DNA from: Steroidobacter gossypii | Lineage (GTDB): Bacteria; Pseudomonadota; Gammaproteobacteria; Steroidobacterales; Steroidobacteraceae | Assembly: GCF_016801985.1 (NCBI RefSeq) | Contig: NZ_JAEVLS010000003.1 | Location: 248,001-312,000 of the forward strand | DNA: 64,000 nt | Direction of reading: 5' to 3' | Shown here: positions 7,563-55,955 of the stretch, one piece after another | How the letters are laid out: every line of letters begins with the position of its first letter | Numbering within the stretch: position 1 is the stretch's first letter | Translations under genes and position numbers: made by a program | The notes under the pieces: model-generated | Told to the model about the DNA's origin: nothing | Databases searched by the model: none | The model's input: the letters and a program-made list of their open reading frames with translations, nothing else

Positions 7563-8309
7563 ATGGAGACTCCAGACGTGCCTTCAAATGTGAAACCCCG
7601 GCGCAAGCGGGCGACCAAGACCCGGCAGTCCACTGCCAGATCCGCCAAGGCGCGCGGCAAGCGCCCGACCAAGGCGGAGCAGCGCGCCGAGATGATGGAG
7701 CAGATCCTGGACGCGGCCGAGGAGCTGTTCTCCAAACATGGTCTCTATGGCGTCACGCTGAAGGACGTGGCCCAGCGCGTGGGCGTGCATCACACGCTCA
7801 TGAACTATTATTTCCAGGACAAGAAGAAGCTGTTCGACCAGGTGTTCGGCCGGCGCGCCGTGGTGACCAGCACGCGCCGCATCGAGGCGCTCGATGCCTA
7901 CGATGAGGCCACCAAGGGCAAGCCGTCGGTCGAAGGGGCGTTGCGCGCGTTCCTCGATACCGACCTCGATCTTTACATCCAAGGCGGGGAACGCTGGAAG
8001 AACTACGGTGCGCTCGGTGCGCAGGTCGCCAACACGCCGGAGTGGGGCGCGGAGCTGATGGACAAGCATTTCGATCCGGTGGTGCTGCGCCTGATCGACT
8101 TGCTGAAGCGGGCGCTTCCGCATGCCGCCGACGAAGATATCTTCTGGGGCTATCACTTCGTGACCGGCGCCTTGCTGCTCACCCTGGCGCGCACCGGGCG
8201 CATCGACAAGCTGTCCGGCGGCATCTGCCAGTCGGAAGATTTCGAGGCGGTCAAACAGCGCATGGCCAAGTTCATGGCGGGCGGTTTTCTCGCCATCTGC
8301 GGCAAATAG
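7563..8309 (+). CDS. TetR/AcrR-family transcriptional regulator
   Basis: One-component repressor of 248 residues. A basic, disordered N-terminal tail of about 40 residues (RRKRATKTRQSTARSAK) precedes the TetR HTH: ILDAAEELFSKHGLYGVTLK, then VAQRVGVHHTLMNYYFQDKK, the canonical recognition-helix region ending in YYF. The rest is the all-helical ligand and dimerisation domain, with FMAGGFLAI at the end. It is convergent with the Ada-AlkA gene, 6 bases away. The target is not evident; the RND operon and MBL gene nearby are candidates. The tail is longer than in most relatives and may make extra DNA contacts. Confidence 0.88.
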   Translation: METPDVPSNVKPRRKRATKTRQSTARSAKARGKRPTKAEQRAEMMEQILDAAEELFSKHGLYGVTLKDVAQRVGVHHTLMNYYFQDKKKLFDQVFGRRAVVTSTRRIEALDAYDEATKGKPSVEGALRAFLDTDLDLYIQGGERWKNYGALGAQVANTPEWGAELMDKHFDPVVLRLIDLLKRALPHAADEDIFWGYHFVTGALLLTLARTGRIDKLSGGICQSEDFEAVKQRMAKFMAGGFLAICGK

Positions 8310-9932: not shown

Positions 9933-10436
9933 ATGCAGCGCTATTTCGGTAAGGTGATCGCTTCGCCCGTCGGGCTTTTGAAGCTGGTCGCGAGCGATCG
10001 CGGCCTGGCGGCCATCCTGTGGGAAAACGACGATCCGCGGCGGGTGCCGCTGGGGGAGGTGGTCGGATGTGGCGACCATCCAGTGTTGTTGGAGACGGAG
10101 CGCCAGCTTCGAGAATATTTCTCCGGCGTGCGAGAGGTGTTCGAGCTGCCGCTCGACGTTCGTGGCACGGAGTTTCAGCGTCGCGTATGGAATGCGCTGC
10201 TCAGCATTCCTTACGGCGAAACTCGCTCCTATCTGCAAATCGCGCGGCACATCGGCAACCCCGCCGCCGTGCGCGCCGTCGGCGCCGCCAACGGCCGCAA
10301 CCCGCTTTCCATCATCGCCCCCTGCCACCGCGTCCTCGGCTCCAACGGCCAACTCACCGGCTTCGCCGGCGGCCTCGAAATCAAGGCCCGGCTGCTCTCG
10401 CACGAGCGCCGGGAGGTGGTGCTTTGCGCCGCGTGA
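9933..10436 (+). CDS. ogt: Methylated-DNA--protein-cysteine methyltransferase
   Basis: Suicide repair enzyme that transfers the methyl group from O6-methylguanine or O4-methylthymine to its own cysteine; 167 residues, normal for Ogt. The active site is in IIAPCHRVLG and the preceding wing carries RAVGAANGRNP. The DNA-binding HTH precedes it (IPYGETRSYLQIARHIG). I use the ATG at 9933, which gives MQRYFGKVIASPVG, a typical opening. It is divergent from the Ada-AlkA gene and supplies the O6-alkyl repair activity missing there. Confidence 0.95.
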   Translation: MQRYFGKVIASPVGLLKLVASDRGLAAILWENDDPRRVPLGEVVGCGDHPVLLETERQLREYFSGVREVFELPLDVRGTEFQRRVWNALLSIPYGETRSYLQIARHIGNPAAVRAVGAANGRNPLSIIAPCHRVLGSNGQLTGFAGGLEIKARLLSHERREVVLCAA

Positions 10437-10450
10437 TGCAATGAGCCACG

Positions 10451-10473
10451 CTGTATTCATCGAACGAATACAG
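10451..10473. promoter_or_regulatory. Perfect inverted repeat upstream of the metF-like gene
   Basis: CTGTATTC and GAATACAG are exact inverted copies with a 7-base spacer, about 85 bases before the reductase start and just after the ogt stop. There is no run of T after it, so an operator is more likely than a terminator. It does not match the promoter block seen before the other two units of the aromatic cluster. Confidence 0.45.
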
Positions 10474-10557
10474 ACAATATGCCGCCCCCCGTTGCTCAAG
10501 GTAACAAACCTCCCGACCATGCGTTCAACGTGGGGAGTCTCGAATCGGGAAGGGCGC

Positions 10558-11466
10558 ATGAAGCAGCGGCAGGTGAAACCGGCGATGCTGATCGAGCCGG
10601 GGGTGATCGCGCAGCTGGCGCGGGACAGCTCGATCGAGATGAACGTGCAGGATGTGCCCGATCTCGCCGCGAGTCGGGAATTGTTGCCGGCGGGCAAGAA
10701 GGTGTACGTCAGTCATCTGCCGAAGCAGACCTGGCAGCAAACCCTGCACGCCTGTCGCAAGGTCCGAGAGGCGGGCTTCGATCCTGTGCCCCATGTGCCC
10801 GTGCGTCTGCTAACGAGCGAACGCGAACTCGATGACCTGCTGAAAGGGGCAGTGAGCGAGTCCGGTGTACAGGAAGTGCTGCTGATCGCCGGCGACTATC
10901 CCAAAGCAGCCGGTCCGTATCCGGCCGTCGCCGACGTACTCAAGCAAGGGAAGCTCACTCAACACGGCCTGGGACGAATATCGCTGGCCGGCCATCCCGA
11001 AGGACATCCCAAAGTATCGCTGACGGAAATCCGCCGCGCGGAGCATGAGAAGGCGCAGCTCGCACAAGATGCCGGCCTTCAAACAACTTTCCTCACCCAG
11101 TTCTTCTTCGAAGCACAACCTTTCCTCGACTGGAGCAACGATCTAAGAGCGAACGGCGTGCAGGCACGACTCGTCGCCGGGCTGGCAGGCCCGGCGAGCA
11201 TCGCCACGCTATTTCGATACGCCGTCCGCTGTGGCGTCGGACCGTCGATACGGGCGCTCGGCGCCAGGCCCTCATCGCTGGTGAAACTGATCGGCGACCA
11301 CGGCCCCGAGCGCGTAATTCGCGACCTCGCCAGCACAACACACAACGAGTCGTTCAACGGCATCCACCTGTTTTGTTTCGGCGGCTTCCTCCGCACGTGC
11401 GCCTGGCTGAAGCGCGTCAGCGACGGCAACTTCAAGCTCGACGATCAGCGCGGCTTCGTGGTCTGA
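10558..11466 (+). CDS. metF: Methylenetetrahydrofolate reductase (short form)
   Basis: FAD-dependent reductase that interconverts 5-methyl-THF and 5,10-methylene-THF. The 302-residue TIM-barrel protein shows the family signals VSHLPKQTWQQTL, FDPVPHVPVR, EVLLIAGDYPKAAGPY and GRISLAGHPEGHP. In this context it probably runs in the oxidative direction, recycling the methyl-THF made by the O-demethylase 10 kb downstream; the same pairing (ligM with metF) is known in Sphingobium SYK-6. The ATG at 10558 is preceded by GGGAAGGGC. It lacks the long regulatory domain of eukaryotic enzymes, as bacterial forms do. Confidence 0.85.
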   Translation: MKQRQVKPAMLIEPGVIAQLARDSSIEMNVQDVPDLAASRELLPAGKKVYVSHLPKQTWQQTLHACRKVREAGFDPVPHVPVRLLTSERELDDLLKGAVSESGVQEVLLIAGDYPKAAGPYPAVADVLKQGKLTQHGLGRISLAGHPEGHPKVSLTEIRRAEHEKAQLAQDAGLQTTFLTQFFFEAQPFLDWSNDLRANGVQARLVAGLAGPASIATLFRYAVRCGVGPSIRALGARPSSLVKLIGDHGPERVIRDLASTTHNESFNGIHLFCFGGFLRTCAWLKRVSDGNFKLDDQRGFVV

Positions 11467-11472
11467 CGCAGC

Positions 11473-11546
11473 GCTATCAGTAAACGTTATCGCTCGAGCG
11501 CCCATCGGCATTGGCGCGGCCGCCGCGCGCGTCTCAATATTTCAAG
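11473..11546 (+). promoter_or_regulatory. Conserved promoter block A, before the feruloyl-CoA synthase operon
   Basis: This block is closely matched by one at 15474-15546. It contains GCTATCAGTA, then TATCGCTCGAGCGC (the palindrome CGCTCGAGCG), CGGCATTGG with a TTGGCG -35 candidate at 11511-11516, and after 18 bases a CAATAT -10 candidate at 11535-11540 followed by TTCAAG. Position and conservation suggest an activator site plus promoter shared by the aromatic-degradation units, probably read by the local LysR protein. Confidence 0.65.
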
Positions 11547-11581
11547 CACGGAGAGCAACCAAAAGATTCACGGGCGCATCC

Positions 11582-13432
11582 TTGAGCACCATCGGGACCA
11601 GCAGGGGTGAGAGCAGAGCGCTGACTCTGGGCCGATACGCTGGAGCCGCCGAACGTCGCGGCGATGGATCCTGGAGCCTGCGATCGATCGAGCCGCTAGG
11701 TCAGTATCCGGAGCGCTTCACGGAATATCTGGTACGTTGGGCAGATCGACGCCCCAACGCCGTGCTGCTCGCCCAGCGTGATAACAACGGTGAGTGGCGA
11801 AAGCTCACCTACGCCGAGGCGTACGAGCAAATCCAACGCATCGCGAGCGCGTTGCTCGAGCGAGGACTGAGCGCGGAACGCCCGCTCATGATTCTATCCG
11901 GCAACAGCATCGAGCATGCCTTGCTCACGCTGGCCGCGATGCATATTGGCGTGCCGGCCGCGCCCGTATCACCGGCATACTCGCTGCTCGATCCCGAATG
12001 TGCTCGCGTGCGCCATGCAGTCTCGCTGCTGACGCCCGGACTCGTGTATGCGGAGCATGCAGCCGCGTTCGAGACTGCGATCATTCAAACTGTGCCCGCG
12101 CAGACCGAAGTCGTCTCATTGATAGGTGAGTTGACCAGACGCACGCATACTCCATTTCAAACGCTGCTGAGCGAACCCAGCTCGAAGCTCGATGAAGCTC
12201 ATCGAGCCGTCACAGGCGACACCATCGCCAAGTTCTTGTTCACATCAGGTTCCACGCGCATGCCGAAGGCGGTGATCAACACCCATCGCATGCTTTCCTG
12301 CAATCAGCGGATGTATGCGCAGTGTTATCCCTTCCTTGAAGAAGAGCCGCCGGTGCTGGTCGACTGGCTGCCGTGGCATCACACGGCGGGCGGCAACGCC
12401 AACATGGGCACGGTGCTCGCGAATGGCGGAACACTGTATATCGATGCGGGCAAACCGACTCCAGCCGCCATTGCGCAAACCGTGGCGAACCTGCGTGAAG
12501 TAGCGCCGACCATCTACTACACGGTCCCTAAAGGACTGGAAATGCTCGTCGAGGAGATGCGCGAGGACCGACAACTGCGCGAACGTTTCTTCAGCCGCCT
12601 GCGCCTGATCTACCCTGCGGGTGCGGCCCTGCCGCGACCTGTGCAGGAGGCCGTCGATGCCATGTCGATACAGGTGAAAGGCGTCAGAACGCCCATGACC
12701 ATGGGCTTGGGCATGACGGAAACGGCGCCGTTCGCCATCTCCGCGCATTTGCCAGACTGGCAAGCCGGCGTGATTGGCCTGCCAGCGCCTGGCGTCGAAG
12801 TGAAGCTCGAGCCCATCGGCGACAAACTCGAAGTGCGCTATCGCGGCCCGAGCATCACGCCGGGCTACTGGCGTCAGCCGGAACTCAATCAGCAGGCCTT
12901 CGACGACGAAGGTTATTTCTGCAGCGGGGACGCGGCCACATTCATCGTCCCCGAACATCCGGAAGAGGGACTGCGCTTCGATGGACGCATCGCCGAGGAC
13001 TTCAAACTATCGAGCGGCACATGGGTGAATGTCGGCGCCATGCGAGCGGCCGTGCTCGCTGCGGGCGCGCCGTATCTGCACGACGTCGTGTTCGTCGGAC
13101 ACGATCGGGACGAGCTGGGCATGCTGGTGTTCCTGAGCGCCGCCGCCAGCCGTCTTTGCCCACACCTGAACGGTGAATATCACGAGATCGCAAGCGACGT
13201 ACTGGTAAAGCAGTGGCTGCACGAGTTGCTCGAACAGCTCGCAGCGCGCGCGAGCGGTGCTTCGCAGCGGATCGTCCGCGCACTGATCCTGGATCAACCG
13301 CCCTCGATCGTCGCGGGCGAGATCACTGATAAGGGCACGATCAACCAGCGAGCCGTCATTCAACGTCGCCAGGCGGCGGTCGAGCTGCTGTATTCGCCCG
13401 AGCCCCCCGAACACATCGTGGTGCTCACATGA
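11582..13432 (+). CDS. fcs: Feruloyl-CoA synthase (ANL-superfamily acyl-CoA ligase)
   Basis: ATP-dependent ligase that forms the CoA thioester of ferulate or a related hydroxycinnamate, the first step of the CoA-dependent side-chain cleavage route. 616 residues. The AMP-binding P-loop is FTSGSTRMPKAVINTHRM at about 220-237, with Ala-Val-Ile-Asn as in known Fcs proteins; also DWLPWHHTAGGN, the adenylate motif MGLGMTETAP, and the C-terminal EITDKGTINQRAV. The start is a TTG at 11582 without a strong ribosome site; no upstream ATG or GTG is in frame. The stop overlaps the next ATG by four bases. Exact acid specificity is inferred from context. Confidence 0.88.
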   Translation: MSTIGTSRGESRALTLGRYAGAAERRGDGSWSLRSIEPLGQYPERFTEYLVRWADRRPNAVLLAQRDNNGEWRKLTYAEAYEQIQRIASALLERGLSAERPLMILSGNSIEHALLTLAAMHIGVPAAPVSPAYSLLDPECARVRHAVSLLTPGLVYAEHAAAFETAIIQTVPAQTEVVSLIGELTRRTHTPFQTLLSEPSSKLDEAHRAVTGDTIAKFLFTSGSTRMPKAVINTHRMLSCNQRMYAQCYPFLEEEPPVLVDWLPWHHTAGGNANMGTVLANGGTLYIDAGKPTPAAIAQTVANLREVAPTIYYTVPKGLEMLVEEMREDRQLRERFFSRLRLIYPAGAALPRPVQEAVDAMSIQVKGVRTPMTMGLGMTETAPFAISAHLPDWQAGVIGLPAPGVEVKLEPIGDKLEVRYRGPSITPGYWRQPELNQQAFDDEGYFCSGDAATFIVPEHPEEGLRFDGRIAEDFKLSSGTWVNVGAMRAAVLAAGAPYLHDVVFVGHDRDELGMLVFLSAAASRLCPHLNGEYHEIASDVLVKQWLHELLEQLAARASGASQRIVRALILDQPPSIVAGEITDKGTINQRAVIQRRQAAVELLYSPEPPEHIVVLT

Positions 13433-14142
13433 CCACGCTGGTGCTGGTGCCCGGCCTGCTGTGCGATGGATTTGTTTGGTCCGAACAGCAACGGGCTCTG
13501 TCGGCGCAAATGCAGGTGTGGGTAGCGGACCACGGCGCGCTCGACTCGCTGACGAACATGGCCTCGGCCATCTTGCGAGACGCGCCCGCAGAGCGGTTCG
13601 CGCTCGCCGGTCATTCCATGGGCGGGCGAGTTGCCCTCGAAGTGTTCAGGCTCGCGCCGCATCGGGTGCAGCGACTTGCGCTGCTCGACACGGGCTGGCG
13701 TCCACGTCAACCGGGCGCCAAAGGCGAGGAGGAGCGGACGTCACGCCTGGCGCTGCTGGAAACCGCGTTCCAGCACGGGATGCGAGTCATGGGCCGGCAG
13801 TGGGCCAGCGGCATGGTGCATCCGAACCGGCTCGACACGCCGATCTTCGAAGCCATCGTCGCCATGATCGAGCGCAAGACGCCGGAGATCTTCGCCGCTC
13901 AGATCCACGCACTGCTCACGCGACCCGATGCGACGGCCCAGCTGCGCGCTCTGCAATGCCCAGTGTTGGTCTTGTGTGGGCGGCAGGATGCCTGGAGCTG
14001 CCTGTCACAACATGTGGAGATGGCCGAGCTCATCCGTCGATCCCATTTGCGCATCATTGAAGAATGCGGTCACATGAGCACCCTGGAACAGCCGGCGGCG
14101 GTGACCGCGGCGCTCACGGAGTGGCTCGGAGACATGGAATGA
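13429..14142 (+). CDS. Alpha/beta-fold hydrolase
   Basis: Small cytoplasmic serine hydrolase of 237 residues without a signal peptide. The nucleophile elbow is GHSMGG (Ser about 63), the oxyanion region is VLVPGLLCDG near the start, the acid is the aspartate in LCGRQDAWS, and the histidine is in EECGHMS. Start and stop both overlap neighbours by ATGA, so it is translated with the feruloyl-CoA synthase and the importer. Its likely role is hydrolysis of an ester or thioester of an aromatic acid, such as a feruloyl ester, but the substrate cannot be read from sequence. Confidence 0.85.
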   Translation: MTTLVLVPGLLCDGFVWSEQQRALSAQMQVWVADHGALDSLTNMASAILRDAPAERFALAGHSMGGRVALEVFRLAPHRVQRLALLDTGWRPRQPGAKGEEERTSRLALLETAFQHGMRVMGRQWASGMVHPNRLDTPIFEAIVAMIERKTPEIFAAQIHALLTRPDATAQLRALQCPVLVLCGRQDAWSCLSQHVEMAELIRRSHLRIIEECGHMSTLEQPAAVTAALTEWLGDME

Positions 14143-15470
14143 CTCAGCTCGATCCCAGCCTGCAACTGCGTCGCGAGCCGATGAGCTCGTTTCAGATCGT
14201 GGCCGTCGCGATCTGCGTGGCGCTGAATGCGCTGGACGGCTTCGACATTCTCGCCATCACCTTCGCCGGCCCGGGCATCATGCGCGAGTGGGGGCTGGGT
14301 CCCGGCGGCCTCGGCATCGTGATCTCGACCGGCCTGGTGGGAATGTCGGTCGGCTCGCTGGCGATTGCGCCGCTTGCGGATACGCGCGGCCGCCGGCCGA
14401 TCATTCTGCTTTGTTTGATCCTGATGACGCTGGGCATGTTGTTCTCGGCCACGGCGAACAACGTCGTCGCGCTGTCCATCTGGCGCGTGATTACAGGGCT
14501 CGGCATCGGCGGCATGCTCGCGTCGATCAACGCCATGGTGGCGGAATACGCCAACGATGCGCGCCGGGATTTCTGCGTGAGTCTCATGACCATCGGTTAT
14601 CCGCTCGGCGGCATGCTGGGCGGCATGGCGGCGGCCGCGCTGCTGGCGCACTTCGACTGGCGCTCGGTGTTCATTTTCGGCGGCGTGGTTTCGATCGGCA
14701 TTCTGGCGGTGGTCTGGTGGCGGCTGCCGGAATCCATCGAGTTCCTGGTCTGGAAACGCTCGCCCGACGCACTGAACCAAATCAATGTGATTTTCCGTCG
14801 CATGGATCGCGCACCCATCACCCAGATGCCGGCCGCTGCGCGCAGGGAGCGCGTTAGCGTGTGGCAGGCATTCGACAGCACCCTGGCGGCGCGCACCGTG
14901 CTGATCTGCGCGGCGTACTTCTTGTACATGATGACCTGCTATTACGCATTGGGCTGGATCCCATCGATCGTTGCTGCTCTGGGGTTCACACCGAGCATCG
15001 GTGCCGAAGTGTCCGTGTGGACCAACCTCGGCGGCATCATCGGCGGCATGTTGCTGGGTTATCTGGCCCGACATATCGGTCTAAAGCCGCTGGCGAGCGG
15101 GGCGATGATCGCCACCGCGCTGGCGCTGATGCTATTCGGTCGTACGCAGCCCGATCTGATGCTTCTCAAAGCCGTGGCTTTCGTGCTGGGTTTCTTTCTG
15201 TATTCATCCGCCGTGGGCTTCTATGCAATGTTCGTGCGCGTGTTTCCTACGCACGTGCGCGCGACCGGCACGGGGCTCGCCATCGGTCTGGGACGCTTCG
15301 GCGGCATGTTGGGCCCGGTGTTGGGCGGCTGGTTGATGGCGGAGGGCACGAGCCGGCCAAGCGTCGCTGCAATCATGGCGCTGGGCGCGGCGCTCGCGGG
15401 GCTGGCGATCTGGTTGCTGCAAGGATCGATGCTCGCCGCGCCCGCGCGGCCGGCGCCGCAGGGTTCGTGA
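14139..15470 (+). CDS. MFS aromatic acid:H+ symporter (AAHS family)
   Basis: Twelve-helix inner-membrane importer of 443 residues. The AAHS signature lies in helix 1, ALNALDGFDILAITFAGPGI, with the aspartates known to be needed in PcaK- and BenK-type permeases. The MFS loop 2-3 motif is LADTRGRRP and the later loop repeat is GYLARHIGLKPL. By context it brings hydroxycinnamates or benzoates to the ligase encoded upstream. It starts in an ATGA overlap with the hydrolase gene and ends the first aromatic operon; promoter block B follows directly. Confidence 0.92.
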   Translation: MTQLDPSLQLRREPMSSFQIVAVAICVALNALDGFDILAITFAGPGIMREWGLGPGGLGIVISTGLVGMSVGSLAIAPLADTRGRRPIILLCLILMTLGMLFSATANNVVALSIWRVITGLGIGGMLASINAMVAEYANDARRDFCVSLMTIGYPLGGMLGGMAAAALLAHFDWRSVFIFGGVVSIGILAVVWWRLPESIEFLVWKRSPDALNQINVIFRRMDRAPITQMPAAARRERVSVWQAFDSTLAARTVLICAAYFLYMMTCYYALGWIPSIVAALGFTPSIGAEVSVWTNLGGIIGGMLLGYLARHIGLKPLASGAMIATALALMLFGRTQPDLMLLKAVAFVLGFFLYSSAVGFYAMFVRVFPTHVRATGTGLAIGLGRFGGMLGPVLGGWLMAEGTSRPSVAAIMALGAALAGLAIWLLQGSMLAAPARPAPQGS

Positions 15471-15473
15471 GCT

Positions 15474-15546
15474 GCTATCAGTATTTCGTATCGCTTGAGC
15501 GCGAACGGTATTGGTTGGGACGATGTGACCAGTCCCATACTTCAAG
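15474..15546 (+). promoter_or_regulatory. Conserved promoter block B, before the TonB receptor operon
   Basis: Second copy of the block at 11473-11546. Shared pieces in the same order: GCTATCAGTA, GTATCGCTTGAGCGC, CGGTATTGG, and CATACTTCAAG. The first and last elements are 67 bases apart here and 68 in copy A. TTGGTT (15511-15516) and CATACT (15536-15541) are the matching -35 and -10 candidates. The receptor start lies about 50 bases downstream. Confidence 0.65.
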
Positions 15547-15591
15547 ATCGAAGACACGCTGATTAAAAAAGATCGGACACGACAGGGGGCT

Positions 15592-17829
15592 GTGGTGTTG
15601 TCATTCAAACGTTACCCGACGACGGTGGCCGTGGCATTGACGCTGGCGGCGCCGCTGATGACCGCGTTGCCGGCACGCGCGGCGGAGCTCGAAGAAGTCA
15701 TCGTCACGGCGCAAAAACGTGAGCAATCGTTGCAGGATGTGAGCGTGGCCGTCACGGCCGTCAGCGCTGACGACCTGCTCCGAAGCAACATCAAAAGCAT
15801 CGAAGATCTGCAGACCCGCGTACCGGGCGTGACTTTCGGCAACGACTTCAGTTTCGCCAAGCTGTTCATTCGCGGCGTCGGTCTGAACAGCTCGTTCGCC
15901 GGCATCGATCCTTCCGTCGCTCTGCACGTCGACGGCGCGGTGGTCGCACAGGCTTCGGCGCAGTTTGCGTCGCTGTTCGACCTGGAGCGGGTGGAAGCAC
16001 TGCGCGGCCCGCAAGGCACGCTATACGGTCGCAACGCTACAGGCGGCTCGATCAATCTCATCACGGCCAAGCCGACGCAGCACTTCAGTGGCTACACCAA
16101 TCTGTCCATCGGCGGCAGCGACTTGAGCTATGGCCTGGACTCGGCGCTGAGCGGACCGCTGACCGACGCGATGTTGGGACGCGTGGCGGTCCACTATCAG
16201 CACCATGACGGTTATGGCATTCACACCGGCAGCGGCAAGGACATCGACGACCTGAACGTGATCGCCACGCGAGCTCATTTGCAGTTCAAGTTCAGCGACA
16301 ACGTCGACCTGCTGTTGAGCGGTGAATACGCCAAGGAAGACGATCACAGCAAGTCGGTGCATTTCATCGCGCCGATGTTCCCGGTGCCGCCGCAACCCAG
16401 CCTGCGGGCGCTGGGTCTGCCGAACGTGCTGGCGAACTCGCGCAATGTCGGCGGCGACTTCCGTCCATCGTTCGAGAGCGAGACCTGGTCGACGACCGCC
16501 ACGCTCACCTGGCAGCTGAGTGACGCGGTCGCCTTGAAGTCGCTGACGAACTATCGTGAGTTCGACGATCAGCTGGTGCAGGACTTCGACGTGTCCGACA
16601 CGGTCAACGGCGGATTTCCGCCAGCGCCCACCTCGACCATGCAGCTGCAAGCCATTGGCGACGAGCAATTCTCCGAGGAGCTGCAATTCATCTACGAGGG
16701 AGACAAGCTGCGCGGCATCGCCGCCGCTTATTACTTGCAGGAGAGCATCGACAGCCTGGTGTTGCTTGGCCGGGATCCGGTGAGATTCCCGGAGCGCTCG
16801 CGCGTGGTGGTGCCGGCGACACTTGATGTGGATGCGTGGGCGGTGTTCGCCAATTTCACATACGCGATCAACGATCTTTTCTCGGTGAAAGCGGGCGCGC
16901 GCTACAGCGCTGAGGAGCGCACGGTGGAGAATCGCTTCGGTGTCGCGAGCCCGGTCGATCCGGCCGCGGTGTTCGACCCCGTACGCCGCGCCTCACGGGA
17001 CTATTCCGATTTCTCGCCTGAAGTCGGTGTGGAGCTGCGGCCGTCCTCGGACATGATGCTTTATGCAACGTACTCGGAAGGCTTCAAGAGCGGCACCGCC
17101 AATCTCGGCGAGCGCGTGCCGAACCTGGTGAATCCCGAGACCATCGAGAACTTCGAAGCGGGCATCAAAAGCCGCTGGCTGAGGGACACGTTGCTACTGA
17201 ACGTCGCGGCGTTCAAATACAAGGTCGAGGACGCGCAGTACGACCGCACTTACGCCATCACTGCGCCGCCATTCTATGCAGCGCGCCTCGAGAACGCCGC
17301 GACCACCGACGGGCGGGGCGTGGAGCTGGAGTCCAGTTGGCTGGCGACGGATCGCTTCCGCCTGTCGCTCAGCGGCACCTACTATCACATCCGCTTCGAT
17401 CGGTTCCTGTCGCAGAACCCGATCAATCCCGCGTTGTTCGGTCCGGCCGGATCGAGCCTGCCGCCGGAGGATCTGGCGGGCAACAGCCCGCGCAACACGC
17501 CCGATTGGACCGCCGAGTTGTCCGCTACCTACAAATGGCCGTTGACCAGCGGTGCGTCGCTGGCGTTGACGGCAGCGGCAGCCGCGCGAGATAAACAGTA
17601 CTACACGGAGTTCAACGACGATATCACCGGACAGGACGACTACACGCTGTACGATGCGAACTTGCTCTACACCACGCCGGGCGGCAAGCTCACGCTCAAT
17701 CTGTGGGGCAAGAATCTGACAGATGAGATGATCGTGTCGGGCATCTACGTCACATCGACCGCACGCACCATCACGGGTACGTATCTGCCACCGCGCACAT
17801 ATGGCGCGACGGTGGGTTACAAGTTCTAG
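15592..17829 (+). CDS. TonB-dependent outer-membrane receptor, aromatic cluster
   Basis: 22-stranded outer-membrane transporter of 745 residues powered by TonB-ExbBD. It starts with GTG and has a signal peptide cleaved near ALPARAAELEE. The plug domain opens with EEVIVTAQKREQSLQDVSVA and contains VEALRGPQGTLYGRNATGG; the barrel ends YGATVGYKF with the usual terminal Phe. This receptor subclass is common in sphingomonads and Steroidobacter-like bacteria, where members import lignin-derived aromatics and other non-iron ligands. It heads a four-gene operon with gaps of about 15 bases, so uptake of the aromatic substrate is the likely role. Confidence 0.92.
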   Translation: MVLSFKRYPTTVAVALTLAAPLMTALPARAAELEEVIVTAQKREQSLQDVSVAVTAVSADDLLRSNIKSIEDLQTRVPGVTFGNDFSFAKLFIRGVGLNSSFAGIDPSVALHVDGAVVAQASAQFASLFDLERVEALRGPQGTLYGRNATGGSINLITAKPTQHFSGYTNLSIGGSDLSYGLDSALSGPLTDAMLGRVAVHYQHHDGYGIHTGSGKDIDDLNVIATRAHLQFKFSDNVDLLLSGEYAKEDDHSKSVHFIAPMFPVPPQPSLRALGLPNVLANSRNVGGDFRPSFESETWSTTATLTWQLSDAVALKSLTNYREFDDQLVQDFDVSDTVNGGFPPAPTSTMQLQAIGDEQFSEELQFIYEGDKLRGIAAAYYLQESIDSLVLLGRDPVRFPERSRVVVPATLDVDAWAVFANFTYAINDLFSVKAGARYSAEERTVENRFGVASPVDPAAVFDPVRRASRDYSDFSPEVGVELRPSSDMMLYATYSEGFKSGTANLGERVPNLVNPETIENFEAGIKSRWLRDTLLLNVAAFKYKVEDAQYDRTYAITAPPFYAARLENAATTDGRGVELESSWLATDRFRLSLSGTYYHIRFDRFLSQNPINPALFGPAGSSLPPEDLAGNSPRNTPDWTAELSATYKWPLTSGASLALTAAAAARDKQYYTEFNDDITGQDDYTLYDANLLYTTPGGKLTLNLWGKNLTDEMIVSGIYVTSTARTITGTYLPPRTYGATVGYKF

Positions 17830-17845
17830 CAGTAACGGGGATTCG

Positions 17846-19225
17846 ATGCAGTCTGAAGCCGTCGGCTATCGTCACACACAACACGTCGGCTTGCTGCTGA
17901 TCGATCACCCGCCAGTGAACGTGCTCGGCGCAGCGGTGCGCGCGAGCCTGGCGCATGGTTTGCAAGCAGCGCTCGCGGACGATGCTGTGCAGGTCATCGT
18001 CATCGCAAGCACGGGCAAAGCGTTCTGCGCCGGCGCTGACATCGCCGAATTCAATGCGCCGATGAAGGAGCCAACGCTGCAGGATGTATTTGCAGCGATC
18101 GAGGCGGCCAGCAAACCCGTGGTCGCAGCGATGCACGGTGTGGCATTGGGCGGCGGACTGGAACTCGCGCTTGCCTGTCACTACCGAGTGGCGTCGAGAG
18201 ACGCAAAGCTCGGCTTGCCCGAGATCACATTGGGTGTGATTCCAGGAGCCGGCGGCACACAACGATTGCCGCGAATCATTGGAGCCGTGGCCGCGTTCGA
18301 CATGATCGTCGGCGGCACGCCCGTCGATGCGACCACTGCACGACACCTCGGCTTGATCGACGCCTTGATCCAAGGTGACTTGATGGAGGGTGCGCACCAG
18401 TTCGCCGAGCAATTGCTCAGGCGGGGCGCGGGGCCGCGACCGACGCGGGATCGATCCGTCGATCTCACCGGCTTCAATCCGGCCGGCGTGGCCGCTGTTC
18501 TGGAGAAACATTCGCGAGCGCTCAAGGGCCGCACGACTCAGCAGCTCGTCATCGAGGCATTATCGGCGGCCATCCAGCCGAACTTCGATGCCGGCCTCGC
18601 CATGGAGCGGCGGCTTGCCGATTACTCACTCTCCACCACCGAGAGCCGGGCGCTGCGTCATCTGTTCTTTGCCGCCCAGGAGTTTAAGAAGCTTGGAGGC
18701 GCATCCGGCGGAAGTTTCGAACTCATCGGCCCCAGGATGATGGACGCCTATGCAAGCGAGTCGGAGCGATTGATGCAGGAGGGCGCGACGCCGGAGCAGG
18801 TGGATAGCGCCATGGAGACGTTTGGATTCTCGGCGGGACCGGCGCGTAGCCAGAAGACGCCGGCGTCCACGAACGGGGTCGAGCGTCGGGCCATCGACGC
18901 CGCGGAGATCATGGAGCGCTGCGTGCTCCAGCTGATCAACATGGGCGCGCGCCTGCTCGAAGAAGGCGTTGCCTTGCGAGCCGCGGACATCGACGTGCTC
19001 TGGGCCCAAAGCTATGGATTTCCGCGTTACCTGGGCGGGCCGATGTTTTATGCCGGTACGCTCGGGCTGGCGCACGTTCGCCAACGCCTCGAATACTATC
19101 GGTTACGACTGCAGGATGATCGTTGGACGCCAGCGCTGCTCATCGAGCGCCTGGCGCGACGGGGTGAGACGTTCGAGCAGTGGGACAGCGAACGCCGCGC
19201 TCCGGAGCCTGCCCATCTCAGGTGA
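17846..19225 (+). CDS. Enoyl-CoA hydratase fused to 3-hydroxyacyl-CoA dehydrogenase C-terminal region, NAD-binding domain missing
   Basis: 459-residue protein. Residues 1-190 are a crotonase domain with the oxyanion loop GKAFCAGADIAEFN and both catalytic glutamates (Glu106 in GGGLELALAC, Glu126 in LGLPEITLG). Residues 205-283 match the linker of FadJ-type fusions (ESRALRHLFFAAQEFKK). The chain then jumps to the C-terminal dehydrogenase domain (LIGPRMMDAYASESERLMQE, GFPRYLGGPM). The Rossmann domain of roughly 180-200 residues, with its GxGxxG motif, is absent, and part of the first C-terminal repeat is shortened near 333-345. Hydration, and perhaps feruloyl-CoA hydratase/lyase activity, could survive, but NAD-dependent oxidation could not. 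It is second in the receptor operon. Confidence 0.85.
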   Translation: MQSEAVGYRHTQHVGLLLIDHPPVNVLGAAVRASLAHGLQAALADDAVQVIVIASTGKAFCAGADIAEFNAPMKEPTLQDVFAAIEAASKPVVAAMHGVALGGGLELALACHYRVASRDAKLGLPEITLGVIPGAGGTQRLPRIIGAVAAFDMIVGGTPVDATTARHLGLIDALIQGDLMEGAHQFAEQLLRRGAGPRPTRDRSVDLTGFNPAGVAAVLEKHSRALKGRTTQQLVIEALSAAIQPNFDAGLAMERRLADYSLSTTESRALRHLFFAAQEFKKLGGASGGSFELIGPRMMDAYASESERLMQEGATPEQVDSAMETFGFSAGPARSQKTPASTNGVERRAIDAAEIMERCVLQLINMGARLLEEGVALRAADIDVLWAQSYGFPRYLGGPMFYAGTLGLAHVRQRLEYYRLRLQDDRWTPALLIERLARRGETFEQWDSERRAPEPAHLR

Positions 19226-19240
19226 TCAGGAAGGGACCCC

Positions 19241-21956
<2,716 letters not shown>

Positions 21957-23145: not shown

Positions 23146-23304
23146 TCGCAGCGAAACCCGGAAAGCGCGACAGTATGCACGGCGCGGCCGCTTCAGTCGG
23201 CCTGTCGCAGTTCACGAACAACCGGCTGCCACAATTGATCATGATGTCCGCTGCAACCTGCAGCTATGCTGCCGGCCTTTGCAGAAATTACGGAGGGAAC
23301 GAGC

Positions 23305-24210
23305 ATGCAGGGTCGCTGGGCGACGGGTGTCGTATCGTTAGCATTGCTGGTCCAAGCCGCCGGCGCGGCGTCGATCGATTGCACGCAGTGTGAAAAGTGG
23401 AATCGCGACCAGGCGCCATTCCAGATCTTCGGCAACACGTACTTCGTCGGCACGCACGGCTTGAGCTCGGTGCTGATCACGACGCCCGGCGGACATGTGC
23501 TGATCGATGGCGCGCTGCCTCAGTCCGCGCCGCTGATCGCAAGGCATGTGGAGCAGCTGGGCTTCAAGATGAGCGACGTGAAGGTCATTCTGAACTCACA
23601 CGTTCACTATGATCATGCCGGCGGCATCGCCGAGCTGCAGAAGCTGAGTGGCGCCAAGGTCATCGCCAGCGACAAGGCCGTGAACGCATTGCGCACCGGC
23701 AAGCTAGATCCCAGCGATCCGCAAGTCGGATATCCGATTCATTATCCTGGGGCGGAGAACGTCGAAGCGCTCGGATCGCGCGAGTCGATCGAAGTCGGCG
23801 GCGTGCGGTTCAACGTGATTCACACACCGGGTCACACGCCTGGCGGCACGTCGTGGCGCTGGCAGGCGTGCGAGGCAGCGCGATGTTTGAACATCGTCTA
23901 CGGCGATAGCTTGACCGCGGTCTCGGACGATTCATTCAAGTTCAGTGGCGATCCACGGTATCCAAATGCGGCGGCGGATTTGACTGCCAGCATCGCCGCC
24001 ATCACAGCCACACCGTGTGACATTTTGATCGCCGCTCATCCCGAGCGGACGGGGCTATGGTCGGTGTTCGACGAGCAGGGTAAAGGCGATCGCGCGCGGC
24101 TCATCGATCCTTCGGCGTGCAAGCGTTCCGCCGCGGAAGCGAAGCAGTATCTTGACCAGCGGCTGGAGAAAGAGCGCCAGTCCGCCCGGAGTCCCAACAA
24201 GTCATCCTAG
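23305..24210 (+). CDS. Subclass B3 metallo-beta-lactamase
   Basis: 301-residue periplasmic zinc hydrolase; the ATG at 23305 follows CGGAGGGAAC and gives a signal peptide cleaved near AAGAASID. The B3 metal set is complete: HVHYDH (His116/118, Asp120/His121 equivalents), the histidine in HTPGHTPGGTSW (His196 equivalent) and AAHPERTGLW (His263 equivalent). The N-terminal CTQCEKWNRDQAPFQIFGNTY and YFVGTHGLSS are typical of environmental B3 enzymes. It should hydrolyse penicillins, cephalosporins and carbapenems if expressed, but activity is unproven. No mobile element or resistance cassette is nearby, so it is probably chromosomal. Its 3' end overlaps the convergent thioesterase frame. Confidence 0.88.
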   Translation: MQGRWATGVVSLALLVQAAGAASIDCTQCEKWNRDQAPFQIFGNTYFVGTHGLSSVLITTPGGHVLIDGALPQSAPLIARHVEQLGFKMSDVKVILNSHVHYDHAGGIAELQKLSGAKVIASDKAVNALRTGKLDPSDPQVGYPIHYPGAENVEALGSRESIEVGGVRFNVIHTPGHTPGGTSWRWQACEAARCLNIVYGDSLTAVSDDSFKFSGDPRYPNAAADLTASIAAITATPCDILIAAHPERTGLWSVFDEQGKGDRARLIDPSACKRSAAEAKQYLDQRLEKERQSARSPNKSS

Positions 24211-55133: not shown

Positions 55134-55955
55134 ATGCTGCTTTGGGTCGATATGTGTTGCGGTGCGCGCGTTGCGGCATCGTTGGCGGAGTTTTCGCGCA
55201 TTTGCGAGGTCCGGGCGACGGATCAAAAGCATTTGTGGGCGGCGTTGTCGCTGGCGACTCCCGCCGATGTCATCTGTTTCGACTTCGAGCACCCGGACAT
55301 GGGCTGCCTCAAGTTCGTCACCGACACCAAGGCCAGGTTTCCGTCGGTGCCCATTATTATGTTGCTCTCCCAACAGTCGGCCGACGTAGTGCTATGGGCG
55401 CTGCGCACCCGAATCTTCGATGTGCTGCTCAAACCTTTGACGGCACGCGACGTGTTGCGCTGTGTGCAACGCCTGTCGCCGGTGCTCGAGGCGCGGCGGA
55501 CGCAGGGGACGCGCTCCAATGCGACCGGCGCGGAGGCAATTCCAGATGAGGCTCGCTATCACGCCAAACGCAATACCCGAGGCAAGCTGGACGGTGTGCT
55601 GGGTTATATAGAAAAGAACTATGCGCAGCCGATCAGCGAGCAGGAGGTGGCGCGTGATTACGGCATGTCGCCCTTCGAGTTCAGCAGGGCATTTCGCGCC
55701 GCGTACGGCATCACTTTCCGAGACCATCTGAGCGATTGCCGGTTGCTCCAGTCGAAGCGGTTGCTCGGCATTCCGCAGGTGTCCGTCAGCGACGTGGCTG
55801 CCATGGCGGGATTCAACGATCCTTCATATTTCGCTCGGTTGTTTCGCAAACGAACTGGCCTGTCGCCGAGCGCCTACCGCGCTTCGGTGCTGACGGCGCA
55901 GAAGGCGCCGCAAGGTTCCGGGTTGATGGAAGCCGGTACCGAAGCCACCGGCTGA
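55134..55955 (+). CDS. Receiver-like/AraC-type regulator next to the Tad operon
   Basis: 273-residue protein: residues 1-115 resemble a CheY receiver and 160-260 form an AraC double HTH (VARDYGMSPFEFSRAFRAAY and VSVSDVAAMAGFNDPSYFAR). In the receiver, the phosphoacceptor candidate is in VICFDFEHPDMGC, Ser in IMLLSQQS and Lys in VLLKPLTARD, but the N-terminal acidic pair is reduced to one aspartate in LLWVDMCC. No histidine kinase lies nearby. It is divergent from flp, so it probably controls pilus expression. The ATG at 55134 follows GGGAG. Confidence 0.82.
   Translation: MLLWVDMCCGARVAASLAEFSRICEVRATDQKHLWAALSLATPADVICFDFEHPDMGCLKFVTDTKARFPSVPIIMLLSQQSADVVLWALRTRIFDVLLKPLTARDVLRCVQRLSPVLEARRTQGTRSNATGAEAIPDEARYHAKRNTRGKLDGVLGYIEKNYAQPISEQEVARDYGMSPFEFSRAFRAAYGITFRDHLSDCRLLQSKRLLGIPQVSVSDVAAMAGFNDPSYFARLFRKRTGLSPSAYRASVLTAQKAPQGSGLMEAGTEATG

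Follow-up and report, generated by a model that had tools for sequence, protein, structure and literature searches.

Among described regulators, one of the closest counterparts of the system considered here is LigR of Novosphingobium aromaticivorans and Sphingobium lignivorans SYK-6, a LysR-type activator of protocatechuate 4,5-cleavage operons. According to one account (PMC12710314), LigR activates the two operons on either side of a common site at -51 to -85, its sites overlap T-N11-A and carry TTAT, and its target genes handle protocatechuate, 3-O-methylgallate and gallate (sections 5, 9, 10 and 12). PcaQ of Sinorhizobium meliloti is another LysR-type activator. In SYK-6, regulators of the MarR type act on the same pathways as those discussed below, namely DesR on the vanillate/syringate genes, including a ligM-metF-ligH operon, (PMC6888825), and FerC, named in a reference cited there, on the ferulate genes. 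Here we analyzed a 64,000-nucleotide stretch of Steroidobacter gossypii (NZ_JAEVLS010000003.1, positions 248,001 to 312,000; hereafter the window), in which two similar intergenic blocks, A and B, precede two parts of an aromatic gene cluster that also encodes a LysR-type protein with two helix-turn-helix (HTH) domains. Judging from sequence comparisons, both blocks are quite probably LysR-type activator sites fused to weak promoters and driven by this local tandem-HTH LysR protein.

Results

The blocks and the cluster genes all lie on the forward strand, in the order metF-like gene, block A, feruloyl-CoA synthase (FCS)-like gene, alpha/beta hydrolase gene, major facilitator superfamily (MFS) transporter gene, block B, TonB-dependent receptor gene, enoyl-CoA hydratase/FadB-like gene, LysR gene and LigM-type gene. 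Gaps within the cluster are short or overlapping, except those that hold the blocks. An initial annotation, made from the letters alone, had described block A (11473-11546) and block B (15474-15546) as sharing ordered elements over about 74 bases, and this was confirmed. The first element, GCTATCAGTA, begins at 11473 in A and 15474 in B. It is followed by TATCGCTYGAGCGC at 11488-11501 and 15489-15502 (TATCGCTCGAGCGC in A, TATCGCTTGAGCGC in B), CGGYATTGG at 11506-11514 and 15506-15514 (CGGCATTGG and CGGTATTGG), and TTCAAG at 11541-11546 and 15541-15546, so that the spacing from first to last element differs by 1 base. Aligned locally (match 1, mismatch -1, gap -2.5/-1), the intergenic regions scored 26.5, far above chance: 20,000 dinucleotide-shuffled region pairs reached at most 17, and 19,896 pairs of stretches drawn at random from the window all stayed below 26.5, the top score being 21. 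A repeat search also returned the left part of the blocks as a two-copy family (11473-11501 and 15474-15502, 79% identity).

The repeat is rare. In the whole genome (7.1 Mb, 32 contigs), TATCGCTYGAGCGC occurs exactly twice, both times within the blocks. The block itself was sought in 14 genus genomes, where CTATCANNANNNNNTATCGCTYG without mismatches has five occurrences, namely A, B and the block A of three relatives. A sequence-only profile of these five blocks gave five matches at 60.6-80.2 bits, and the next-best match reached 23.3 bits and covers part of the model only; scoring was confined to 150 first-look candidates in each genome and may have overlooked weak copies. With just five strong copies, the block is not a dispersed repeat. 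A search for the composite motif in the genome and its relatives had been set as a test beforehand, and it revealed no random scatter, all five strong copies lying at the aromatic cluster. Allowing 1-2 mismatches in CTATCANNANNNNNTATCGCTYG gave 53 more matches against 47 for the reversed control pattern, and these were rejected as further block copies; the two that were inspected (L047, L063) fall in open reading frames (ORFs). That two alike intergenic copies stand within 4 kb of each other could also point to a repeat or mobile element, or to a structured RNA leader. We regard this as extremely unlikely, given the absence of further strong copies and the fact that a possible hairpin at CGCTYGAGCG is not retained in the relatives. 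In addition, the sole Rfam match at E<=0.1 in 11300-15800 scores 17.1 bits against a cutoff of 40 and lies inside a coding region, and this lack of a notable match speaks against an RNA leader.

Block A is conserved. An FCS-like match at E<=1e-100 was present in 42 of 200 genomes drawn from the family, the own genome being one of the 42. Besides the own genome, three of them encode a protein with 75-77% identity, and the next is at <=51%. These three are Peristeroidobacter agariperforans KA5-B (G106), Steroidobacter agaridevorans SA29-B (G115) and Peristeroidobacter soli JW-3 (G096). The run from metF to LigM is conserved in all three, and searches of the 36-39 kb fetched from each relative gave no match at E<=1e-30 for those flanking window proteins that were tried. 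Block A occurs at the same site, the metF-FCS gap, and with the same spacing in every one of the three relatives found with the cluster, which supports, for this block, the proposal of a common activator site plus promoter. Of the 85 columns of the five-block alignment, 32 are invariant, among them those of CTATCA, TATCGCT, the G and CGC of CGCTYGnnCGC, CGG, ATTGG and C-N-ATA-N-T in the -10 region. The TTCAAG that follows the -10-like site had been listed among the shared elements; it is present in A and B and missing from the three relatives, and is thus lineage-specific.

Each block reads as a LysR-type site followed by a weak sigma-70-like promoter. In PMC5002191 (section 15), CTATA-n9-TATAG is given as the extended consensus of the LysR family. 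The sequence CTATC-N9-TATCG, at 11474-11492 in A (centre 11483) and 15475-15493 in B (centre 15484), matches it at 8 of 10 positions in all five blocks, with T-N11-A in an imperfect dyad. Five positions in the window match at this level, two of which are A and B, against a first-order Markov expectation of 1.4 per 64 kb. The CGCTYGnnCGC part of the next element extends past the box and might provide a second contact. Farther downstream, CGGYATTGG overlaps a -35-like hexamer, TTGGCG in A (11511-11516) and TTGGTT in B (15511-15516), and a -10-like hexamer is predicted 19 bases after it, AATATT in A (11536-11541) and CATACT in B (15536-15541). The pattern TTGGNN, 19 bases, NATANT fits all five blocks, the three relatives carrying AATAAT. 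Counted from the start that the -10-like site predicts, the box centre would lie about 64-65 bases upstream, near -65 in A. A sigma-70 consensus scan of 11400-15640 found no promoter.

The local LysR protein (19241-20539, 432 aa), downstream of block B, had been labeled a double-HTH LysR, and Pfam bears this out with HTH_1 in two stretches plus LysR_substrate. Its likely start is 19241, since the likeness to the relatives' proteins extends to the residues ahead of 19331. Among 396 order genomes drawn, its gene has a match at E<=1e-90 in four, which are the own genome and the three block-bearing relatives, where the protein is 84-85% identical. Nearly full-length homologs at 33-39% identity are found more widely, at E<=1e-55 in 27 of 398 phylum genomes drawn (own included), and a separate class draw gave a match at E<=1e-50 in 2 of 369 genomes, the own and one other. 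On plasmids, 135 records match at E<=1e-40 and 134 of them cover at least 80% of the query; the gene names, among the matches listed, say just LysR family. The 16 sequences of solved structures that matched at E<=1e-10 have lengths of 205-329 residues, too short for the two-HTH architecture. Narrow phrase searches of one open-access library gave, among the papers listed, no title or abstract start that describes LysR proteins with two HTH domains, which does not show that none is in print.

We fetched 20 loci of the 28 phylum matches, leaving out the window gene itself and keeping its paralog in the same genome; three of the stretches end at contig ends. A LigA or LigB match lies within the fetched stretch in 14 of the 20. 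In two of them, L122 and L130, the tandem-HTH LysR gene has next to it an oxidoreductase gene and then ligA, ligB and a ligC-like gene, and L122 carries ligK/U/I-like genes on the opposite side; apart from ligA and ligB, these genes are named from their first residues. The order in L122 and L130 is that of the N. aromaticivorans ligR locus, as given in PMC12710314 (sections 5 and 10), and on this basis the window LysR most likely belongs with the LigR-type regulators. Regulators of the tandem-HTH type were found across many Pseudomonadota, often beside ligA/ligB. A second tandem-HTH LysR gene of the same genome and contig (C25:538801-539973) has ligAB about 6 kb off. A second FCS-like gene lies at C25:556099-557880, next to a gene for a 709-aa FadB-like protein; both second genes are about 270-300 kb from the cluster.

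A motif derived independently from this subfamily points to the blocks. A de novo expectation-maximization (EM) search was run on 135-base regions around and upstream of the LysR start at 19 loci outside the genus, with the own paralog left out; the regions were cut to 135 bases because, on 230-base regions, widths 21 and 23 were captured by neighboring coding sequence. At width 19, the motif has a site in 13 of the 19 loci (posterior >=0.99), with consensus ATtaGTTTTTGcTATAGTg. Over 127,964 window positions it ranks block A second and block B seventh, both at the LysR box. In the relatives' clusters the same matrix places block A first (G106 and G096) or fourth (G115), and the held-out site upstream of the second tandem-HTH LysR gene in the genome (L127) ranks first at widths 19 and 21. 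In a rerun, the motif had a log-likelihood ratio of 89.1 and ranked A sixth and B fourth, each block being represented by its best-scoring position. Among 89 mononucleotide-shuffled sets the best ratio was 65.3, and no set placed the two blocks together at such ranks, 13 and 47 coming nearest; B by itself came to ranks 3 and 6 in shuffled sets. The proposal that the local LysR is the activator gains support from a subfamily motif that picks out A and B.

Several observations weigh against this reading of the blocks. The best motif match in B is oppositely oriented to that in A, and the ranks shift with width, A and B being 28 and 4 at width 21 and 30 and 8 at width 23; for block A of the relatives, width 21 gives fourth place in G106, second in G096 and a place outside the best 7 in G115. 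A hand-oriented, hand-weighted matrix gives ranks of 10 and 99 for A and B, and with its 48-base extension the ranks become 2 and 809. Used alone, the portion past the box misses the blocks (3,232 and 56,620). Across the window, the EM motif scores highest inside an ORF (55603-55625), most likely by chance. The box alone is not enriched, CTATMN9TATMG having 27 matches against 69 for the reversed control in four genomes, and was rejected as a regulon finder. Co-occurrence cannot single out the LysR gene, since all four genomes share the entire cluster. The blocks do not match the LigR motif TT-N-GC-N6-TTAT, TT-N-GC being missing at that spacing; they carry T-N11-A, and their right half has TTAT, or GTAT in B. 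Finally, block B was found in none of the relatives' MFS-TonB gaps, so that the expected conservation at orthologous loci holds for A in all three relatives and for B in none.

Conservation downstream of the box across the subfamily was considered and is unsupported, a resemblance to the relatives' blocks being limited in this part to L122 and L124 (p<=0.001 for L122 and 0.02-0.05 for L124, uncorrected over 55 comparisons). Blocks A and B are less like L122 downstream of the box than the relatives' blocks are (p 0.08 and 0.41). Beyond the LysR box, L122 shares CTTGG and ATTGG with the relatives' block A at a similar spacing (16-17 of 28), and the composite site is possibly older than the genus.

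The relatives' MFS-TonB gaps are short, and the ribosome-site region beside the TonB gene is the same as in the window; block B is absent from the relatives, the gaps being too short to hold it. Block B is most simply seen as a lineage-specific copy inserted at the MFS-TonB junction, the alternative being loss in the relatives. By alignment columns, A and B agree against the relatives at 12, A and the relatives against B at 10, and B and the relatives against A at 3. These counts favor a recent copy only slightly; the extra length of the MFS-TonB junction is the other argument. Block B might also be a decayed or neutral copy, with only A working and the genes after B read through from A: the relatives manage without B, no terminator-like site was found between the MFS and TonB genes (15470-15592), and B scores well under A with the hand-weighted matrix and its 48-base extension. 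Nevertheless, although many of its spacer positions differ from those of A, B retains the box, CGCTYGAGCGC, CGGYATTGG, a -10-like site and the spacer length of 19 bases. Such selective retention is unexpected from neutral decay, and we consider a nonfunctional B quite unlikely.

The blocks could instead be operators of another regulator, perhaps a repressor, such as the TetR protein encoded at 7563-8309 or a protein of the MarR or IclR type encoded elsewhere, the LysR-like box then being accidental. CGCTYGAGCG is a near-palindrome in both A and B, presumably of the kind used by TetR or MarR proteins, and DesR and FerC of SYK-6 offer a precedent. However, the three relatives do not preserve the palindrome (CGCTTGGCCG) while CTATC-N9-TATCG is invariant, and the independently derived subfamily motif points to LysR. 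In addition, the stretches of 36-39 kb from the relatives contain no counterpart of the TetR gene at E<=1e-30. Control by such a regulator is thus unlikely, and the LysR reading is the one that we retain.

Turning to the individual genes, the metF-like gene upstream of block A (10381-11466; methylenetetrahydrofolate reductase family) has weak Pfam and NCBIfam scores, and its true start lies inside the ORF. The first gene after block A encodes the FCS-like acyl-CoA synthetase (11582-13432), which scores 726 bits against a subfamily cutoff of 777, so that feruloyl-CoA synthase is a close but uncertain label. It is followed by a PcaD-like alpha/beta hydrolase gene that overlaps both neighbors (13429-14142) and by a gene for an MFS transporter of the aromatic acid/H+ symport family (14139-15470). 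The first gene after block B encodes the TonB-dependent receptor (15592-17829), and the next an enoyl-CoA hydratase or shortened FadB-like protein (17846-19225). With 459 aa and a frame open throughout, the latter retains the hydratase domain and the C-terminal 3HCDH part and is without the NAD-binding 3HCDH_N domain of its 707-aa ortholog. After the LysR gene comes that of a LigM-type vanillate/3-O-methylgallate O-demethylase (20556-21956, with the start set by likeness to the relatives), which scores 728 bits against a cutoff of 580 when scanned over 20583-21956. A subclass B3 metallo-beta-lactamase gene lies near the cluster (23266-24210; NF033105, 322 bits, cutoff 240).

In G106, Pfam identifies ligA and ligB between fadB and the LysR gene (L033 18023-19250); an insert of about 1.2 kb in G115 matches it, and the window and G096 have a short gap. 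A palindromic site close to TCTATTCATTTCACGGATAGA was seen at L033 7338-7358, between LysR-like and purU-like genes as read in L033, and at the same place in G115 and G096, hence in three relatives.

Discussion

The combined evidence suggests how the cluster might be controlled. The LigR-like tandem-HTH LysR protein would bind CTATC-N9-TATCG about 65 bases upstream of the start and, with an aromatic effector bound, extend its contact toward the -35-like TTGG. It would thereby recruit RNA polymerase to a promoter that, with its 19-base spacer, is weak on its own. Comparable distances are given for LigR, which protects -51 to -83 and -56 to -85 in N. aromaticivorans, and the footprint of SYK-6 LigR was extended downstream by protocatechuate or gallate (PMC12710314, section 12). 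By analogy, LysR with its effector would reach the CGGYATTGG/-35 region. We infer that protocatechuate, gallate or 3-O-methylgallate, which are products or a substrate of LigM, are likelier effectors than ferulate; a ring-cleavage substrate would also be a better candidate than the ferulate or vanillate suggested in the initial annotation.

Block A would start the unit of feruloyl-CoA synthase, hydrolase and transporter, and block B would start or boost that of TonB receptor, hydratase, LysR and LigM. As the LysR gene stands downstream of B, activation by LysR would raise its own level, and the regulator, placed inside its own target unit, would be subject to positive feedback. In the relatives, a single block A stands ahead of the whole gene run, B being a copy that was probably inserted later in the window lineage.

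A bolder interpretation can be proposed tentatively, although we hold it to be doubtful: LigR-type LysR regulators would form a tandem-HTH class whose extra HTH reads a second element, here CGCTYGnnCGC at and slightly past the right half of the box, and the inserted operator-promoter copy would have split an operon with a buried regulator into two, creating a self-reinforcing loop.

From a biological perspective, the cluster appears to serve the use of plant phenolics, with two promoter modules apparently driving its two parts, and a duplicate of the operon's own promoter has probably divided it. The blocks provide a concrete candidate operator for those LysR proteins that have two DNA-binding domains, a subfamily widespread in Pseudomonadota, often near lignin-aromatic ring-cleavage genes. 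It is this subfamily and its operator that go beyond the ordinary. The link between regulator and site is useful to specialists more than startling, and it makes the role of the second HTH domain testable.

In comparison with known systems, the locus would be a new example of LysR-type control of an aromatic cluster, a kind already known. The SYK-6 regulators DesR and FerC serve the same pathways, but they are of the MarR type, and the sites of DesR are 15-bp inverted repeats of another sequence (PMC6888825). No member of the MarR family is present among the ten window proteins scanned. The window LysR resembles PcaQ in its second HTH and effector domain, its best NCBIfam match being TIGR02424 at 228.6 bits, below the 303.8-bit membership cutoff; unlike PcaQ, it has an extra N-terminal HTH and other target genes. 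Unlike LigR, the window regulator is co-directional with and lies within its target unit, and its proposed targets are genes for ferulate activation, uptake and O-demethylation. The two have in common LysR-type activation of two units, proposed here and described for LigR, and tandem-HTH LysR genes occupy the position of ligR in loci L122 and L130, a gene order from which we infer that LigR itself may carry two HTH domains.

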